A stretch of 36,927 bases of DNA from a bacterium (lineage in GTDB: Bacteria > Bacteroidota > Ignavibacteria > Kapaibacteriales > UBA2268). The notes under the pieces are model-generated. The model ran no database searches. It was not told the DNA's origin and saw nothing but the letters and a program-made list of their open reading frames with translations. The stretch is taken from positions 1 to 36,927 of the forward strand of contig JAUIIX010000030.1 in NCBI GenBank assembly GCA_030431515.1. Direction: 5' to 3'. Each line of letters begins with the position of its first letter. The stretch's first letter is position 1. This document shows positions 8,443 through 27,167 of this stretch, in pieces. The position numbers and the translations under genes were made by a program.

Positions 8443-8631
8443 ATGTTTCCAATGCCTGGTGGAATGGAATGGGTATTAATAGGTGCTGTAGTGTTATTAT
8501 TATTTGGTGGAAAAAAAATTCCTGAATTAATGAAAGGACTTGGGTCTGGTATTAAGGAATTTAAAAAAGCTACAAATGATGTAGAAGGAACTGTAACTAA
8601 AGATAATGATAAAAAAGAAGTAAAAAACTAA
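8443..8631 (+). CDS. tatA: Sec-independent translocase protein TatA
   Basis: A 62-residue TatA/E-type protein of the twin-arginine translocase. Seen: a short periplasmic N-terminus, one membrane helix (about 9-21, [12 protein letters not shown]), the hinge [14 protein letters not shown], an amphipathic helix to about 45, and a charged tail. TatA oligomers form the pathway for folded proteins recruited by TatC. A second TatA/B-type gene starts seven bases after its stop; tatC is not in the window. The DUF1501 protein at 15410 has a Tat-type signal and could be a client. Confidence 0.9.
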
Positions 8632-8637
8632 AATAAT

Positions 8638-8889
8638 ATGTTTGATATTGGTGGCGGTGAAATATTTTTCATAGTTATTGTTGTATTATTGCTATTTGGA
8701 CCTAAAAAAATTCCAGAGATGGCAAGAACTGTAACTAATGGATTACAAAAACTTAAAAATGCCCAAAAAGAATTCACAAAAGAGTTTACCAATATTAAAG
8801 ATGAAATGAATCAGTCTATCAAAGATGCAGAAAGACAAGCTGCGATAGATAATACTAAAAAAAAGAATGATAAAAAGGAAGATGAATGA
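8638..8889 (+). CDS. TatA/TatB-type translocase protein, second copy
   Basis: An 83-residue TatA/B-family protein: one N-terminal membrane helix (about 8-20, IFFIVIVVLLLF), the hinge FGPKKIPEMART, then a long charged amphipathic helix rich in lysine and glutamate. It has a longer tail than the preceding tatA and a TatB-like FGPKKIPE hinge, so it may fill the TatB role (signal-peptide reception with TatC), but TatA and TatB cannot be told apart safely by sequence here. Its stop overlaps the gatA start by four bases (ATGA). Confidence 0.85.
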   Translation: MFDIGGGEIFFIVIVVLLLFGPKKIPEMARTVTNGLQKLKNAQKEFTKEFTNIKDEMNQSIKDAERQAAIDNTKKKNDKKEDE

Positions 8890-10779: not shown

Positions 10780-13440
10780 TTATTTTGTAATATTCAAATT
10801 AATACTTGTTTGATTTCCTTCATTATCAATTAATAAGTAATATGTTCCATTGCTTATATTAGATAAATTTAAGTTAATGTTATGATTACCTTTATTCATC
10901 ATTTTAGGAGCAATTTCAAATACTTTGTTACCTTTAATATCATAAACAACAATAGAAGTTAATCCATTGTTTTTCAAATCAAAAGATAATTTAGCATAAT
11001 CTTGATTGATTGGGTTAGGGTATAAAGTTACATTATTAATTTTATCAGATTTTACAGAAGTTAAATCTAAAGTTTTGAATGACCAAGTTTCAGACCAAGG
11101 ACCATCACCAGCTTCATTAAATCCTCTAACTCTCCAGAAATAATCAGTTGTATGATCTAAGCTAAATACTGTATGAGTATTTAGGAAAACACTTCTTGTA
11201 TCATATTTTACTGTTCCATCTTGAAAATTAGGTGTAGTTGAAATTTGTAATTGGAATGCACCTTTTACATCTAAAGTATTATCAACTGGGAACCATTCAA
11301 ATACTGCTTTTTTATGATTAATTTCTGTTGCATTATCTGCAGGTAAATTTAATGTTGCTGAATCAGTTACACTTGGAGCTATTGTTTTAAATGCCCAAGG
11401 TTCTGTCCATGCAGAAACACCTGCAGTATTACCTGATCTAACTCTCCAATAATAAGTTGTAAAATTCTCTAAGTCAGTAACTAATAACAAAGTATCAGAT
11501 AAATCATTATGAGCAATATCTACATTTGTAAAGTTTTCATCAGTTGTAATTTGTAAATCGTAGTAATTAGCATCACTTGATTTAAACCATCTAAATACTC
11601 TTTCAATTGCTTGCTTGTCAGTTAAGTCTTTTGGTTCAATTTTAGTTGGTCTTATACTTGGTTCAACACCAGTTGTAAAAGATCTAATAACTGAATAAGG
11701 AGCTTTACTAATACCTGTATTTGTTCTAACTCTCCAATAGTATTTAGTTGATGGTTTTAAACCAGAGATAAGAATAACACTCGTATCTACTGCAATTCTA
11801 CCTTTTTCAATTACTGCAAAATCAGAAGAAGTTGAAATTTCAATATCATAGTTCTTTTTGTATTTTACATCTGACCAATCAAATAAAATATCTAAAGGAG
11901 TGTTTGTAGCATTATTTTCAGGTGAAACTAATGTAGGAGTACCAGTCATAGTTGTAAAGTTTCTTGTCTCAGACCAATTTGATAAACATTCTGTAAAAGA
12001 AGCACTAACTCTCCAGTAATACTTAACACCATAGTTTGTTAAAGTAGCACTATAATTTTCATCTGTATATCCAACTTCATTTACAATCATTGACTCAGGA
12101 GAAAAATCAGAAGAAGATGCAACTTGTAAATTATAGTTAGCAATCGAATTTTGAGATTCCCATGATAAATCTGCTATAATGAAAGTTTCAGTAGAATCAT
12201 TTACTGGTAATAATAAATTTGGAGAGAACAATCCGCTTGTAAATTCTCTTCTTTCTGACCAATTTCCAATATTATTATTATCTTCAGCTCTTACTCTCCA
12301 GTGGAACTTTGTTAATGAATTTGGTAAGTCAAGAGTATAAGAATTAGAAGTAATATTTGAAATGTCAAACTGGACAGGAGTTGGGAAATTTGGATTTTCT
12401 GAAATTTGTAATCTATAAGATGCTACACCTTGAGACTCATTCCAAGTAACCATTGCTCCATTTACTGGAATACATTTAGCTTCATTTGCCGGTTCATCTA
12501 AAGTAACATCTGCAAATCTTGTTTTAAATGTAAATGTATCAGACCAATTAGATTCACATAAATCAGCAGAAGAAGCTTTAACTTTCCAATAATATACTTT
12601 ATTGTAATCTTCAGTTAATTGAACCATTAATTGACTATCATTATGGTTAATTACTTCTTGAGTAATAGTACCAAAACTAGGAGTTTCAGCTAATTGGAAT
12701 GTATATGAGGCTGATCCATTTTCTGGCATCCATGTGAAATTTACATTAAAATCAATCCCTTTTGCATTATTAACTGGTTGATCTAAATTTGGTTTAGTAA
12801 CTTCAGTTGTAAAAGATGCTGAGTTTGACCATTCACTTGTACAAGTTGTAGTTCCTGATGTATAATTTGCTCTTACTCTCCAAAAGTATGCAGTATAACT
12901 TTGATTAAGTGCAGCAGAAAAAGTATTTGAAGCAATAGAATTATTGTTAATTTCAGGACTATTAAATGAAGCGTTTGGAGATACTTGTAGTTGATAAGAT
13001 GTTACATTTGGCAATGGAGCCCATTCAAACATAACTGGATTATCTTGACATATCATTCCAATATTTGGCACCATTGTGTTAGTACCAGCTCTTTTTGTTT
13101 CAAAAGTAAATTCATCACTCCAAGCAAAAGTACTTGAATAATTAGCTTTAACTCTCCAATAGTATGTAGCGCTATTGTCAGATAAAACTGCACTTGTAGA
13201 AGTTGTTGTAATACCAGTTTCATTTACAACAGGGTTAGTATAACTACCAGATACTGTTGTTACTTGTAAGTCATAACTTGTTGCATTAACTTTTTGAGTC
13301 CAAGAAAAATCAACATCTAAATCTAAACATTTAGTATCGTTTTCTGGCTCTAATAAAACAGGTTCTAAACCTTGTGAATACAAGTTTATTCCTGTTAAAA
13401 ATAATACAGATATGAGAAAAATACTCTGTAAATACTTCAT
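10780..13440 (-). CDS. Secreted multi-domain fibronectin-III-like protein with T9SS sorting domain
   Basis: An 886-residue cell-surface or secreted protein. Residues 1-22 are a Sec signal peptide ending LYSQ. Eight repeats of about 90-100 residues fill 24-800; each ends in a variant of YYWRVRA...W(S/T)E...FTT, the F/G-strand region of fibronectin type III domains. Residues 803-886 are a type A T9SS sorting domain (LYPNP..., then VVYDIKGNKVFEI, then ISNGTYYLLI...). In T9SS bacteria this tail directs export across the outer membrane and attachment. No catalytic domain is visible, so a binding, adhesion or structural role is likely but unproven. It is a single gene with its own promoter and a bidirectional terminator. 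Confidence 0.88.
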   Translation of the reverse strand: MKYLQSIFLISVLFLTGINLYSQGLEPVLLEPENDTKCLDLDVDFSWTQKVNATSYDLQVTTVSGSYTNPVVNETGITTTSTSAVLSDNSATYYWRVKANYSSTFAWSDEFTFETKRAGTNTMVPNIGMICQDNPVMFEWAPLPNVTSYQLQVSPNASFNSPEINNNSIASNTFSAALNQSYTAYFWRVRANYTSGTTTCTSEWSNSASFTTEVTKPNLDQPVNNAKGIDFNVNFTWMPENGSASYTFQLAETPSFGTITQEVINHNDSQLMVQLTEDYNKVYYWKVKASSADLCESNWSDTFTFKTRFADVTLDEPANEAKCIPVNGAMVTWNESQGVASYRLQISENPNFPTPVQFDISNITSNSYTLDLPNSLTKFHWRVRAEDNNNIGNWSERREFTSGLFSPNLLLPVNDSTETFIIADLSWESQNSIANYNLQVASSSDFSPESMIVNEVGYTDENYSATLTNYGVKYYWRVSASFTECLSNWSETRNFTTMTGTPTLVSPENNATNTPLDILFDWSDVKYKKNYDIEISTSSDFAVIEKGRIAVDTSVILISGLKPSTKYYWRVRTNTGISKAPYSVIRSFTTGVEPSIRPTKIEPKDLTDKQAIERVFRWFKSSDANYYDLQITTDENFTNVDIAHNDLSDTLLLVTDLENFTTYYWRVRSGNTAGVSAWTEPWAFKTIAPSVTDSATLNLPADNATEINHKKAVFEWFPVDNTLDVKGAFQLQISTTPNFQDGTVKYDTRSVFLNTHTVFSLDHTTDYFWRVRGFNEAGDGPWSETWSFKTLDLTSVKSDKINNVTLYPNPINQDYAKLSFDLKNNGLTSIVVYDIKGNKVFEIAPKMMNKGNHNINLNLSNISNGTYYLLIDNEGNQTSINLNITK

Positions 13441-13716: not shown

Positions 13717-15405
13717 ATGAAAAGAAGAGAATTTATTAAGGATATTATTAGTGATGTTAAAGATAATAATGCTTATAATACAGCCGAATTAAAAGGAAAT
13801 CTTGATGAATATACTGGTGAATGGGGTAAATCTCAAGCAAATCATTTGTTAAGAAGGACTCTATTTGGGTTTAGAAAAAATGATTTGGAGAAAGCTCTTA
13901 CATTTAACTCTTCATCTAAATGTATTGATGAATTAACTAAAATTAAAGCTGTTGAAGTTGATCCTCCTGTTAAATTTTACGACTCTGGTCAGTATCCTGA
14001 TACAGTTAAAGTTGGAGAAACATGGGTGAATTCTTATTTTTCAGCTCAATTAGAGAATGAAAGAATTGCTGGATTAAAAGCATGGTGGTTTGGAAAAATG
14101 ATAGACCAAGACTTTAATATCAGAGAGAAAATGACTTTGTTTTGGCACAATCATTTTTCAACTGAATCTGAAATAGTTAGAGTTGGTGTTTTCCATTATA
14201 CTACAAATGAATTATTTAGAGAATATGCATTAGGTAATTTTAAAGAATTAGTAAAAAAAGTAACTTTAGACCCAACTATGCTTTTTTATTTGAATGGGAA
14301 TGAAAACTTGGCTGGTAAACCTAATGAGAACTTTGCTCGTGAATTACTTGAATTATTTACTATTGGTAAAGGACCATTAATTGGTGATGGTAACTATACT
14401 AATTATACTGAAGAAGATATTAGAGAAGCTGCAAAAGTGTTAACTGGATGGAATTTAAGAATTAGAGGAACTGTATTTGAAAATGAATTAAAGTTTTATA
14501 GTGCAATTCATGACTATTCAGTTAAACAGTTTTCTTCAGCATTTCAAAATAAAACAATAACACCTACTGGTGAGAATGAATATATAGAATTGATAAATAT
14601 GATTTTTAATCAAGATGAAGTTTCAAGATTTATTGTTAGAAAAATCTATAAATGGTTTGTATATTATAATATTACAGAAGAAACTGAAACGAATATTATT
14701 GAACCTCTTGCTAAAATTCTTAGAGATGACAATTACGAAATAGAAAGGGTTGTAAAAACACTTTTAAAGTCGAACCATTTTTTTCAAACAGAGTCTTATG
14801 GTGTAATGGTCAAAAATCCAATTGATTATGTTTGCGGATTAGTAAAAAATTTAGAACTAAGTTTTCCAACTAAAAATAATCCTGATTTACCTGAAGTTAC
14901 AAACAAATATTTAGCATGGTTTAATTATGGTTTTCAAACTGCATCTGATTTGCAATTAGAATTATTTGACCCTCCAAGTGTGGCTGGTTGGGAAGCATAT
15001 TATCAAACTCCGACTTTTTATAGGATATGGATAAGTTCTGCAACAATTCAAATTAGGCAGCAATTTGTTCAGAATATATTGTCAAATAGAGGATTAAACA
15101 GATTAAATATTACACTAAAAGCATCTGGAATTGATTTTGCTGAGACTTTATCAAATCCTTCTGATCCTAATAAATTAGTTAATGAAATGTGTGATAGATT
15201 GTATCCTTTTGATTTGACACTTAATCAAAAAACAATACTAAAATTGAATATTGTTGATGAGGGTCAAGGAGATTATAATTGGACAAATTTATGGGGTTTA
15301 TATCAATCAAATAAAAATGATCAATTAACAAAAGCTACTGTTGAAACAAAACTAACTAATTTATTAAAAAGTGCTTTAGAATTAGCAGAATATCAATTAT
15401 CTTAA
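13717..15405 (+). CDS. DUF1800 family protein
   Basis: A 562-residue DUF1800 protein. Seen: HLLRRTLFGFRKND at 43-56, then blocks containing MTLFWHNHFST, GNENLAGKPNENFARELLELFTIG and AAKVLTGWN, all hallmarks of the family. DUF1800 genes are regularly next to DUF1501 genes in many phyla; the biochemical function is not established. The N-terminus MKRREFIK resembles a Tat motif but is followed by a charged, polar stretch rather than a hydrophobic core, so it is not a convincing signal peptide. There is no C-terminal sorting domain. The DUF1501 gene starts four bases after the stop, so the two are co-expressed and may work, or be exported, together (inference). Confidence 0.88.
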   Translation: MKRREFIKDIISDVKDNNAYNTAELKGNLDEYTGEWGKSQANHLLRRTLFGFRKNDLEKALTFNSSSKCIDELTKIKAVEVDPPVKFYDSGQYPDTVKVGETWVNSYFSAQLENERIAGLKAWWFGKMIDQDFNIREKMTLFWHNHFSTESEIVRVGVFHYTTNELFREYALGNFKELVKKVTLDPTMLFYLNGNENLAGKPNENFARELLELFTIGKGPLIGDGNYTNYTEEDIREAAKVLTGWNLRIRGTVFENELKFYSAIHDYSVKQFSSAFQNKTITPTGENEYIELINMIFNQDEVSRFIVRKIYKWFVYYNITEETETNIIEPLAKILRDDNYEIERVVKTLLKSNHFFQTESYGVMVKNPIDYVCGLVKNLELSFPTKNNPDLPEVTNKYLAWFNYGFQTASDLQLELFDPPSVAGWEAYYQTPTFYRIWISSATIQIRQQFVQNILSNRGLNRLNITLKASGIDFAETLSNPSDPNKLVNEMCDRLYPFDLTLNQKTILKLNIVDEGQGDYNWTNLWGLYQSNKNDQLTKATVETKLTNLLKSALELAEYQLS

Positions 15406-15409
15406 GGAA

Positions 15410-16981
15410 ATGAAAATGAAAAGAAGAGATTTTATAAAAAATACATCATTATTAACAGCTACTCCTTTTGTAATTGGTGGTTTGAGTGTAACTGCTAATT
15501 CTTCTCCAGTATTAGAAACTTTAGCAAAAAAAGCAAATGCTGAAGATAAGATTCTGATATTAATACAATTAGTTGGTGGAAATGATGGATTAAATACTGT
15601 AATACCCTTAGATAAATACGATAAATTATTTAATGCTCGAGAGAATATTATTATTGATGAAAAGAAAACTTTAAAATTGACTGATTCAGTAGGACTTCAT
15701 CCTGTAATGACTGGAATGAAAACTTTATGGGATGAGGGTAAATTAGCAGTTGTTCAGAATGTTTCTTACCCAAGTCAAAATTTTTCACATTTTAGATCAA
15801 CAGATATTTGGACATCCGCTTCTGAAGCAGATAAATATGTAAGTTCTGGCTGGATAGGTAGATATTTAAATAATTTACATCCTCAATTTCCAGAGAATTA
15901 TCCAAACGATGATTATCAAGATCCACTTTCGATTACTGTAGGTTCTTTGGTATCACAAACTTGCCAAGGACCAATATTTTCAATGGGATTAGCCCTTAAT
16001 TCTGCAACAAATTTTGTTGATTTGAACAAAAATCCAGACGAAGATAAATTAGATAGTGAATATGGGAAAGAATTAAATTATGTAAGAACTGTAATTGCTC
16101 AAACTGAAAAATATGTTGATGTTTTACAAAATGCTATTGACAAAAGTAATGTGGATGATAATATTTGGAGTGATTTAAATTTTAATTTAGCGAATCAATT
16201 AAAAATAGTTGCCCAATTATTATCTGGTGGAATTAAAACTAAAGTTTTTGTTTGTAGTATTGGTGGATTTGATACTCACTCAACTCAAATAAGTGATGAA
16301 AATGATACAAGTATTGGAGCACATGCAAACTTACTTGCTCAAGTATCTAGTTCTATTTATGCCTTTCAAAAACAAATTGAAGCTACTGGAATATCTGATA
16401 AAGTAGTTGGTATGACATTTTCAGAATTTGGTAGAAGAATAATATCAAATAGTAGTTTAGGGACTGATCATGGTTCTGCTGCTCCAATGTTTGTTTTTGG
16501 TGACTCTATTAATGCTGGTATTTATGGAAATAATCCTGATATACCAGATAATGTTGATGTAAGTAGTAATTTAGAAATGGAATTTGACTTCAGAGATATT
16601 TACTCAACTGTACTTAGAGATTGGTTTGAAGTAAATAATTCTCAATTGAATGAAATAATGTTTAGGGAATTTGATATATTACCTTTATTTAAGACTACAT
16701 CTGTTAAAAATAATACTTCTAATATCGATGCTGTAAGGGTTTATCCTAATCCAGCTTCTAATAAAACAAATTTGAAGTTCTTTACAAAAGCAGGTGGAGT
16801 AAAAATTGAGTTGTTTGATATGTCAGGTAGAAAAGTAGCTGATATATTTAACTCTTATTTAGGTAATGGTGAACACAATATTGATATTAATTTACTAAAA
16901 ATTAACAATGGGCAGTACTTGATTAAAGTTAGTGATGAGAAAGGATTGTTTAACTCAGTTAAACTAATTGTTAATAAATAG
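15410..16981 (+). CDS. DUF1501 family protein with Tat-type signal and T9SS sorting domain
   Basis: A 523-residue DUF1501 protein of the alkaline-phosphatase-like/sulfatase fold group. Residues 3-10 hold a twin-arginine motif (KRRDFIKN), followed by a hydrophobic core to about 30: a Tat signal. The body has LIQLVGGNDGLNTVIPL, PSQNFSHFRSTDIWTSA, CSIGGFDTHSTQ, SEFGRRI and GTDHGSAAPMFVFG, typical of the family. Residues 441-523 form a type A T9SS tail (VYPNPAS..., IELFDMSGRKVADI, NNGQYLIKV...). Export of folded protein by Tat to the periplasm and then by T9SS outward is the simplest reading. It pairs with DUF1800 and ends one base from a convergent gene. Confidence 0.9.
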   Translation: MKMKRRDFIKNTSLLTATPFVIGGLSVTANSSPVLETLAKKANAEDKILILIQLVGGNDGLNTVIPLDKYDKLFNARENIIIDEKKTLKLTDSVGLHPVMTGMKTLWDEGKLAVVQNVSYPSQNFSHFRSTDIWTSASEADKYVSSGWIGRYLNNLHPQFPENYPNDDYQDPLSITVGSLVSQTCQGPIFSMGLALNSATNFVDLNKNPDEDKLDSEYGKELNYVRTVIAQTEKYVDVLQNAIDKSNVDDNIWSDLNFNLANQLKIVAQLLSGGIKTKVFVCSIGGFDTHSTQISDENDTSIGAHANLLAQVSSSIYAFQKQIEATGISDKVVGMTFSEFGRRIISNSSLGTDHGSAAPMFVFGDSINAGIYGNNPDIPDNVDVSSNLEMEFDFRDIYSTVLRDWFEVNNSQLNEIMFREFDILPLFKTTSVKNNTSNIDAVRVYPNPASNKTNLKFFTKAGGVKIELFDMSGRKVADIFNSYLGNGEHNIDINLLKINNGQYLIKVSDEKGLFNSVKLIVNK

Positions 16982-24605: not shown

Positions 24606-26168
24606 TTAATTTAATTTATGAAATCTTTTAGATATAATGTCCATAAGTTTTAGTGCATCGTTTTCATCTATATCTGTAATTGAGGCATCATTTATTCCTG
24701 AAGAAGCTGCTGTATCTACGTGTAATGTTGCGAGTTGTAGTCTTCTCTGGAAGAAAGATCTCTTTACATTTATAGTTTGAATTTTATTTATTGGAATTAT
24801 TTTTATTCTTCGAGAATAAAAGCCCTGTTTGATAATTATTTTATCATCTTGAATCTGCCACCCTCTATGTTGCCATCTTAAAACAGCACCAAAATATACT
24901 ATTGGAATTAATAATGAGAACCAATAATAGTCTAAACCAAATGAATATGCTATTGCAGTTATAATTAATACTACAATAAAATATCTAATAAATGCTCGTC
25001 TAATTGTTTTACGTGATACTTGCTCGTAAGTAATTGGAAAATCAAAGTTAATTATTCCTTTAGCGAGTTCAATTACTTTGTCAAATTTGGCAAAAGGAAC
25101 AGCAGTTTCTGGTCTTCTATTCTCAACTGAACTAAGCCCAGCTGTTTCAAGCATTAACCCCCAATAACCAAATTTTTGTCTTATAACATTTGAAAATAAT
25201 ACTATCATTTGGAGTTTTTTTAATGGAATAGTTCCATGTCTTTTATTTAAAAAGCCATGACTTGTATATAGTTTATTTTCTCCTAATTTTAACTTAAATG
25301 ACCACCACTGATTTATTGTTAATATTATATCCAAAATCCAAGAAAGAATGAATGCAACTAAGAATAAAGCGATGAAATATAGAGATATTAGAAACCAATT
25401 CATTGAATTGGAATACTCTTCTATGTTGTATATAGCATCTTCTAAATATTGTTGAATATCTTCAGGCATAAACTGCTGACCAATAGAATATATCCAAGCA
25501 ACTAAAACAAATAACACTGGTCTGAATCTTAAAATTCCATAAATAATTAATTCTTTTACTGACATTGAAATTAGTTCTTTTTCATTGTCTTCTTCATTTA
25601 CATATTCTTGTTTTTCTTGAGTATTATCGCTATCAATTAATATTTCGTTATTATCTATATTTAGTGTTGAAGAATCAACTGATAAATTATTTAGTACATT
25701 TGAAGGAACATTTGATTGATATGATTTGATTAAGTTTTTTATTTCATTAGCTTTAGATGTTTTAATAGAATCTAAAACTCCCTCAGCATTTGCATCACCT
25801 GCAGTTTCCATTTGAATTTTAGAAATATTAAATAATCTTTGAATAAAATTTTGAGTTATGTTAACATTTTGAATTCTTTTTAATGGTATGTTTCTTTGTT
25901 TTTTACTTAATATTCCAGAGTGAATTATTAACTCATCTTTTGTAAATAAGTATTTGAAATAATAAAAGTTTAATAAAGTGATAGGGAAGATGAATAATCC
26001 ATAAATAAGAGCAAGAATAATATATATCCAATTTTCGCCACTACCTCTAGAAATTGCAAAATAAAATGTTAATATTAAACCTGGTAGTTGTCGTATAGAT
26101 TGATAAATAATACTTAATGGAGATAATCTAAGTCCATCAGTATGAATATTATAATTAATATCACTCAT
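24606..26168 (-). CDS. Three-domain bacterial PH membrane protein (YdbT type)
   Basis: A 520-residue membrane protein with three bPH2 (DUF304) domains separated by hydrophobic pairs. Seen: membrane helices near 28-68, then a PH strand series ELIIHSGILSKKQRNIPLKRIQ; a central acidic linker near 165-205; helices near 215-295; a second unit with KLYTSHGFLNKRHGTIPLKKLQ; further helices near 395-430; and a third unit with IIIKQGFYSRRIKIIPINKIQ. This repeat of (G-F/I)...(I-P)...K-(I/L)-Q is the family hallmark. In Bacillus the ydbS-ydbT pair contributes to resistance to membrane-active peptides; the molecular role is unclear. Its start overlaps the YdbS-like gene by four bases. Confidence 0.88.
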   Translation of the reverse strand: MSDINYNIHTDGLRLSPLSIIYQSIRQLPGLILTFYFAISRGSGENWIYIILALIYGLFIFPITLLNFYYFKYLFTKDELIIHSGILSKKQRNIPLKRIQNVNITQNFIQRLFNISKIQMETAGDANAEGVLDSIKTSKANEIKNLIKSYQSNVPSNVLNNLSVDSSTLNIDNNEILIDSDNTQEKQEYVNEEDNEKELISMSVKELIIYGILRFRPVLFVLVAWIYSIGQQFMPEDIQQYLEDAIYNIEEYSNSMNWFLISLYFIALFLVAFILSWILDIILTINQWWSFKLKLGENKLYTSHGFLNKRHGTIPLKKLQMIVLFSNVIRQKFGYWGLMLETAGLSSVENRRPETAVPFAKFDKVIELAKGIINFDFPITYEQVSRKTIRRAFIRYFIVVLIITAIAYSFGLDYYWFSLLIPIVYFGAVLRWQHRGWQIQDDKIIIKQGFYSRRIKIIPINKIQTINVKRSFFQRRLQLATLHVDTAASSGINDASITDIDENDALKLMDIISKRFHKLN

Positions 26169-26638
26169 ACTGCATCTTCACTTGTATAATTTTTCAATTG
26201 ATCTCTTAAATCTTCTGCATATTGAATAGGTAGCCCAGGAATAAGAATATCAGCACCTTTTGTACCTGCTGTATAGATTACAAGTTTGCCTAATCCAAGC
26301 CATCTATCTAAAATTGATTGTATTACATCAATATGTTGTACTCTACTATATGGTGCAGTTGTATGAATTCGAGTGAAAACACCTCTTTCAATATATATTT
26401 CATTTTCTCTAACATCAAATTTCCAATATTTATATTTTAATGGAGGGATAATGAATAATAATAGTAAAAAAAATGTAAATACTAAAGCTGAAAAAACGTA
26501 ATCAGCGAAAAACCACTTATGAATGTGGTCAGAAATAATAAAATATTCTAAAGCAACAGCTACTATGGTAAAGAAGATTAATCTACTAACACCAGAAATA
26601 GCCCATTGAGATTTAATTTCGGGCGATAATTGAAACAT
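26165..26638 (-). CDS. Bacterial PH-domain membrane protein (YdbS type)
   Basis: A 157-residue protein with two membrane helices (about 20-35 and 45-65) and one bPH2 domain at about 70-145, containing EIYIERGVFTRIHTTAPYSRVQ and GLGKLVIYTAG. It forms the usual two-gene unit with the three-domain protein downstream (four-base ATGA overlap), so the two products probably act as a complex. The N-terminus FQLSPEIKSQWAISG is typical of YdbS proteins. A TAATTTTG box (complement of 26667-26674) lies about 30 bases upstream, but I found no matching -33 element. Confidence 0.88.
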   Translation of the reverse strand: MFQLSPEIKSQWAISGVSRLIFFTIVAVALEYFIISDHIHKWFFADYVFSALVFTFFLLLLFIIPPLKYKYWKFDVRENEIYIERGVFTRIHTTAPYSRVQHIDVIQSILDRWLGLGKLVIYTAGTKGADILIPGLPIQYAEDLRDQLKNYTSEDAV

Positions 26639-26876: not shown

Positions 26877-27167
26877 TCAATAACGATTGAAATTATTTCT
26901 ATCTGAATTTCTTGGTCTGTCATCATCAGATCTCTCACGAGCTTCGTTGACAACCATTTTTCTACCTTCTAACTCACTACCGTTAAGTGCTTCAATTGCT
27001 TTGTTTCCATCTTCATCTTCCATTTCAACAAATCCGAAGCCTTTTTTTCTACCAGTAGCTCTGTCTGTGATCAATTTAACTGAGCTTACAGCTCCATAGC
27101 TTGAGAAGACTTTTTCAATATCGTCTTCACCAAGTGCATAGGAAAGGTTCCCTACATAGATATTCAT
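26877..27167 (-). CDS. RRM-domain RNA-binding protein
   Basis: A 96-residue single-RRM protein of the type common in cyanobacteria and Bacteroidota. RNP2 is IYVGNL at 3-8 and RNP1 is KGFGFVEM at 42-49, both intact with the aromatic residues that stack on RNA bases. A GRKMVVNEA strand closes the domain near 75, followed by a charged tail rich in Arg, Asp and Asn. In cyanobacteria such proteins are cold-induced; the role here is not shown. It has a good promoter, an A/T-tract leader of roughly 80 bases and a structured 3' region before its terminator, so post-transcriptional control is plausible. Confidence 0.92.
   Translation of the reverse strand: MNIYVGNLSYALGEDDIEKVFSSYGAVSSVKLITDRATGRKKGFGFVEMEDEDGNKAIEALNGSELEGRKMVVNEARERSDDDRPRNSDRNNFNRY

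Follow-up and report, generated by a model that had tools for sequence, protein, structure and literature searches.

A DUF1501 protein of Bacteroidota with a proposed Tat-type signal peptide and a T9SS sorting domain, encoded beside a signal-less DUF1800 partner

Introduction

Gingipains and RemA are examples of the type A cargo of the T9SS. Known T9SS cargo has been described as exported by Sec and unfolded at the inner membrane (PMC10202324), and this 2023 review and a 2025 paper (PMC12618676) assign a Sec-dependent signal to all T9SS effectors, which agrees with what the earlier note on the DNA studied here had assumed about the general route of such cargo. The Tat pathway, in turn, takes part in two described arrangements that are relevant to the present locus. 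In hitchhiker export, an established Tat mode used, for example, by hydrogenases and PaoABC (PMC4273604, PMC10924467), one signal-bearing subunit is accompanied by one or more signal-less partners, as in HybOC and PaoABC (PMC4273604), which remain periplasmic. In Tat-then-T2SS export, the inner and the outer membrane are crossed one after the other by a protein that is already folded (PMC9127263). As to the protein families concerned, Tat motifs on DUF1501 proteins and their operon with DUF1800 are already in print (PMC5122149), and signal peptides have been described in DUF1501-containing clusters (PMC4452313).

The DUF1501 protein described here resembles type A cargo in that its C-terminal sorting domain (CTD) scores above curated cut-offs and SprA is encoded in the genome; it differs in its first signal, which is of the Sec type in known cargo and of the Tat type here. 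Because this signal is twin-arginine and low in hydrophobicity, we class the protein as a variant rather than as ordinary T9SS cargo. With the Tat hitchhikers it shares the combination of a signal-bearing protein and a signal-less partner, with the difference that DUF1501 carries an outer-membrane signal besides and that the complex is putative in the present case. Compared with Tat-then-T2SS export, the outer-membrane machine and its signal are different. DUF1800-DUF1501 pairs in Proteobacteria, Deinococcota, and Actinomycetota have the same gene order and a twin-arginine DUF1501, but they lack the T9SS tail. Our literature searches, which covered part of the relevant literature, found neither a published connection between DUF1501 and T9SS nor a published Tat-type T9SS cargo. 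What is new here is the proposal that the first step in the export of a T9SS cargo can be of the Tat type, the Tat motif on DUF1501 and the operon being already known.

Results

The window, that is, the whole stretch of DNA analyzed, comprises 36,927 nucleotides of contig JAUIIX010000030.1 (assembly GCA_030431515.1; Bacteroidota, Kapaibacteriales), from a source genome of 3.55 Mb on 160 contigs. The DUF1501 open reading frame occupies positions 15410..16981 of the plus strand and encodes 523 amino acids, with the same boundaries as in the earlier note; its product exceeds the cut-offs of PF07394, PF18962, and TIGR04183. The DUF1501 domain itself covers residues 47-402 (15548..16615, plus strand; PF07394, 61.9 bits against a cut-off of 27), and PF07394 matches all 80 family members considered below (E <= 1). 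These 80 named loci are the best 80 of at least 581, come from across the phylum, and were ranked with a tail-bearing query. Alignment A2 combines the window protein with 79 of them, one locus (L154) being left out since it runs off its contig. The same genome holds a second DUF1501 gene, which starts with MKRRDFL and continues for 98 residues beyond the domain; this end looks CTD-like by eye and is absent from the genome's CTD matches listed. Elsewhere in the window, a short RRM protein (26877-27167) matches an NCBIfam model of an RNA-binding regulator above its cut-off, and two adjoining bacterial PH-domain (bPH_2) proteins, one with three stretches, lie at 24606-26638.

The predicted structure of the DUF1501 protein (mean pLDDT, 73.9) places its domain in the alkaline phosphatase superfamily. 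VIA matches connect the model to NPP phosphodiesterases (7cba_A; Z 17.2, rmsd 3.6, 248 residues aligned) and to sulfatases and phosphoethanolamine transferases (MCR-1/EptA) at Z of about 14-15, and LtaS tops the Foldseek list. The fold is common to DUF1501 and the superfamily (NPP, sulfatases, LtaS, EptA/MCR; Z 14-17 over ~250 residues). Sequence identity amounts to ~10-12%, and the catalytic role of DUF1501 is putative. Within A2, the motifs GGND, D-T/N-H (FDTH), SEFGR, and GTDHG are invariant or nearly so, and their conserved Asp and His residues would fit a candidate metal site. Taking fold and motifs together, we infer that DUF1501 is a putative secreted metallo-hydrolase or transferase that may act on phosphate or sulfate esters.

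Directly upstream lies a DUF1800 gene (13717..15405, plus strand; PF08811, 289 bits), whose stop codon is separated from the DUF1501 start by 4 bases. At 75 of the 80 named loci, the first gene upstream of DUF1501 likewise encodes DUF1800, at a distance of at most 40 bases in 64 of these 75. The other five loci were left out: two are cut, one has a broken frame, and two have no upstream room, and pieces of DUF1800 are present at the first three. As the earlier note had read from the window, the DUF1800 protein starts with MKRREFIK (RREFIK codons at 13723..13740, plus strand, by translation) and has neither a hydrophobic core nor a tail, and hence no signal peptide was seen. This holds beyond the window: leaving aside one cut start and one broken frame, none of the 74 readable DUF1800 genes encodes a core of Sec strength (>=2.2) from any ATG, GTG, or TTG start, so that alternative start codons hiding a Sec signal can be discarded for these loci. 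A twin-arginine or RK motif was detected by regular expression in 15 of 75 DUF1800 proteins, mostly without a core; a core of >=1.5 accompanies it in three (L104, L110, and L169). One of the three, a DUF1800 from Chlorobiota (L169:1925-3529), has an apparent Tat signal of its own (MNRRSFFSQAGLTAGALVVARKGG), unlike the rest.

The order DUF1800-DUF1501 was found in all eight plasmid records analyzed, and four of five proteobacterial DUF1800 proteins carry a Sec or lipoprotein-type signal when judged by eye. By the same inspection, the DUF1800 proteins of Vibrio, Miltoncostaea, and Persicobacter lack a signal, and that of Thermus is interrupted by an IS. Signal-less DUF1800 thus also occurs, in Vibrio and in an actinobacterium, alongside a DUF1501 without a T9SS tail. 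The presence of an own signal in some lineages and its absence in Bacteroidota fit the prediction of Tat hitchhiking, and the Sec/lipoprotein-type signals of the proteobacterial pairs, together with the Tat-like one of L169, suggest that DUF1800 works outside the cytoplasm there. As far as sequences can tell, the conserved pairing of the genes, the lack of a signal, and the four proteobacterial signals all favor the conjecture of the earlier note that DUF1800 might ride with DUF1501. Alternatively, DUF1501 might pass through Tat and T9SS alone, and DUF1800 might remain cytoplasmic and act as a chaperone for maturation or Tat proofreading, with the arginines found in some species being a decoy or a relic. 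Remnant signals are read by redox-enzyme chaperones, a slight parallel to the coreless motifs in 15 of 75 DUF1800 proteins, and the fact that none of the 74 readable sequences reaches the core strength of a Sec signal also favors this role; the signals on the four proteobacterial homologs and on L169 speak against it and make it rather unlikely in our view.

The confident structure model of DUF1800 is mainly helical (pLDDT, 92.2), and against the PDB Foldseek returned nothing below E 0.3 and VIA-align a best Z of 4.2, while the best sequence profile matches reached only E 0.11 and 0.25. This makes DUF1800 a candidate for an unsolved fold, which is less than the demonstration of a new one.

The N terminus of the window DUF1501 protein (MKMKRRDFIKNTSLLTATPFVIGGLSVTA) begins with MKMKRRDFIK and continues with a moderately hydrophobic core, whose best 10-residue Kyte-Doolittle mean is 1.9. 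We propose a Tat-type signal peptide of approximately residues 1-30 (15410..15499, plus strand), its extent and cleavage site being putative, with the twin-arginine motif RRDFIK at residues 5-10 (15422..15439, plus strand). Within A2 (n=80), the motif takes the form [K/N/E]RRxF[L/I][K/R]: the first arginine is present in 80/80, the second in 76/80 (three K and one H otherwise), and the phenylalanine in 80/80, followed mostly by L or I and then mostly by K or R. The remaining columns of the signal are mostly variable, except for one proline, one glycine, and one alanine. A larger set of 110 loci, window included, gave the same pattern, with RR in 106/110, Phe in 110/110, and RK or RH in the other four; one member of this set (L100) was read by eye, and two (L089 and L147) are identical. 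According to PMC6708511, Tat signals are marked by the consensus S-R-R-x-F-L-K, by being less hydrophobic, and by basic residues that precede the A-x-A site, the last being described as a trait that helps to avoid Sec. The residue preceding the conserved alanine (62/80) is basic in 39/80 sequences of A2 and is threonine in the window protein.

The signals were also compared with other T9SS cargo of the same genome. The hydrophobic core has a median of 1.79 in the DUF1501 signals (n=110) versus 3.05 in the cargo (n=74; Mann-Whitney p 5e-27, a value that is not a true probability because the sequences are related). A 10-residue Kyte-Doolittle mean of >=2.2 is reached by 8 of 110 DUF1501 signals versus 72 of 74 cargo N termini, the two others (L202 and L027) being without any hydrophobic core, and twin arginines within the first 25 residues occur in 0/74 readable cargo N termini. 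The cargo sample stems from the first 110 of the 150 CTD matches listed. Among the top 30, our own protein was set aside, two had no open reading frame, and 10 of the remaining 27 were readable; matches 31-110 contributed 64 readable N termini, with 13 cut by contig ends and three without an ATG, for a total of 74. The cargo start was taken as the ATG giving the best core, a choice that favors high cargo values. Such ordinary cargo is also found nearby, at 10780-13440 on the minus strand, where a protein with Ig/fn3 repeats combines a hydrophobic, Sec-like start with a T9SS tail.

By itself, the motif proves nothing: as a bare DNA pattern, RRxF[LIVMF]K has 71 matches genome-wide versus 83 in the reversed control, which is chance level. 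What gives it weight as evidence for Tat is that it sits right where translation begins and that it is conserved. Nor did we let the TAT family models decide, which are too weak and serve as aids rather than as definitions of the class. TIGR01409 and PF10518 left the window protein unmatched (E <= 1) and matched 11/80 and 9/80 family members, respectively, at the same threshold; this low coverage might perhaps be due to the models being short and weak. The protein of Polaribacter porphyrae exceeds the cut-offs for both signals, with 17.1 bits (cut-off 16.7) for TIGR01409 and 43.9 (cut-off 23) for TIGR04183. The survey of DUF1501 proteins for both signals that the earlier note had called for thus returned twin arginines in 76/80 sequences of A2 and a CTD match in 75 of the 80 family members.

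Twin-arginine signals can be compatible with Sec. It could therefore be argued that DUF1501 is ordinary Sec-dependent T9SS cargo whose arginines form a basic n-region inherited without function, a reading that the chance-level DNA pattern, the unmatched TAT models, and the general assignment of T9SS effectors to Sec (PMC10202324, PMC12618676) would allow. The conservation of RR-x-F in 76/80 and of the phenylalanine in 80/80 sequences across the phylum, a core weaker than that of nearly all readable cargo of the genome, and similar starts in tail-less relatives from Bacteroidota and other phyla all argue against it, and we consider it improbable.

With regard to the Tat machinery, two TatA/B-family genes are present in the window (8443..8631, PF02416, 61.9 bits; 8638..8889, PF02416, 52.4 bits; both on the plus strand and given for context only), as the earlier note had recognized. 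We gave them no weight, since they lie ~5-7 kb upstream of the DUF1501 locus with other genes between and since TatC is present in 391/395 sampled genomes of the phylum, which likewise led us to reject co-occurrence with TatC as evidence. The sole tatC found in this genome (one TatC match) is located on another contig. As to the T9SS translocon, SprA is encoded in this genome with 716 bits on one contig (775.7 including its neighbor) and another piece on a second one, along with at least 150 CTD matches (224 candidates, of which 150 were scored).

The C-terminal part of the window protein was assigned to the type A sorting domain by both curated models, TIGR04183 at residues 444-522 (16739..16975, plus strand; 46.8 bits against a cut-off of 23) and PF18962 at residues 444-521 (44.2 bits against 27). 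The domain is modeled as all-beta, with predicted strands between residues 440 and 521 and a pLDDT of 78-91 for the block. Consequently, the description of this protein in the earlier note as a DUF1501 with a twin-arginine start, a hydrophobic core, and a T9SS tail is confirmed by the motif, the moderate core, and the curated models. A family profile matched the C terminus of a GH167 hydrolase (9whd, E 1.4e-5) and, with E of about 0.005-0.009, solved T9SS CTDs (mirolase 8qb1, 8glk, and 8glj).

PF18962 and TIGR04183 each matched the tail in 75 of the 80 members (E <= 1), a share that is biased by the tail-bearing ranking query. TIGR04183 found no CTD in five members (L147, L151, L166, L167, and L170), and L152 scored 17.9, below the cut-off. 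Judging from Pfam counts, L166, L167, and L170 are probably the members with a PKD-like (one) or G8 (two) domain. In view of this bias, a tail-free query was also used, which matched in 97/119 sampled genomes of the order and 153/395 of the phylum. Among the matches listed, the open frames inspected by eye measure at least 510 amino acids except for four (440, 445, 451, and 472), which implies ~80 or more residues beyond the DUF1501 domain. SprA was found in 151/153 genomes with such a match versus 153/242 without (Fisher p 7e-20, shared ancestry ignored); the former count was made by eye, with SprA lacking in two genomes and reaching only E 9e-4 in a third. In a divergent DUF1501 branch (L288 and L290), SRRSFLQALG is preceded by a more extended stretch of N-terminal open frame, and the tail resembles a T9SS domain by eye. 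That the Tat signal is real and the tail merely an anchoring or nonfunctional Ig-like domain, leaving DUF1501 in the periplasm, would suit the lack of the tail in L151 and the matches of other members to G8 (in two) or PKD-like (in one) domains, but is improbable in light of the 75/80 matches to sorting-domain models, the tracking of the family by SprA, and the retention of the tail nearly throughout its clade.

Tail-less DUF1501 proteins of ~400 residues were found at ten further loci in Bacteroidota, where they start with RR-x-F (RK-x-F in one, L291), and the DUF1501 proteins of the eight plasmid records (one from Bacteroidota, five from Proteobacteria, and the others from Deinococcota and Actinomycetota) have an RR start and no tail by eye. 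When 68 domain sequences were placed on a quick tree and labeled by tail length rather than by CTD match, the label required two changes, which we read as one gain and a loss in L151, the tail being kept almost throughout its clade. Some branches of this tree are long, the outgroup is nonmonophyletic, and support for the position of the root, on which the direction "gain" leans, is weak. Together with the RR-starting tail-less relatives, the tree suggests that a Tat-type ancestor most likely acquired the CTD later and kept its signal.

Discussion

In the DUF1501 family, a twin-arginine start and a T9SS sorting domain are conserved together, genes of both machineries (TatA/B, TatC, and SprA) are present in the genome, and a signal-less DUF1800 is encoded next to the DUF1501 gene. 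Considering motif, core, CTD, SprA, and TatC jointly, the sequence data appear to be explained best by the Tat-then-T9SS route that the earlier note had put forward: the metalloenzyme-like DUF1501 would be exported by Tat and then by T9SS, probably with DUF1800 carried along, a reading to which we assign a probability of roughly 0.7.

The proposed sequence of events would begin in the cytoplasm, where DUF1501 may fold before export, probably bearing its metal and bound to its partner. The twin-arginine signal would then take the prefolded protein through Tat, with DUF1800 as a hitchhiker, and the CTD would subsequently direct the folded DUF1501 through T9SS. The use of Tat would be explained by a preloaded metal, a bound partner, or both, which need folded export. 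Since T9SS has been described to transport folded cargo (PMC9251779), the two pathways are compatible. The end point of DUF1800 could be the periplasm or the outside. It is tempting to speculate, as a tentative extension, that a heteromeric DUF1501-DUF1800 complex, put together in the cytoplasm, might pass folded first through Tat and next through the pore formed by SprA, a double hitchhike in which one Tat signal and one CTD, both on DUF1501, would possibly serve both proteins.

If the proposed route is true, a phylum-wide DUF1501 family, with members in cultured genera such as Polaribacter, Flavobacterium, Spirosoma, Neolewinella, and Lacihabitans, would be a counterexample to the notion of Sec-only T9SS cargo. 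T9SS would then accept proteins that were folded before leaving the cytoplasm, and cofactor-bearing or multisubunit proteins would have a route to the cell surface. For DUF1501 and DUF1800, both large families of unknown function, this provides a hypothesis about their transport.
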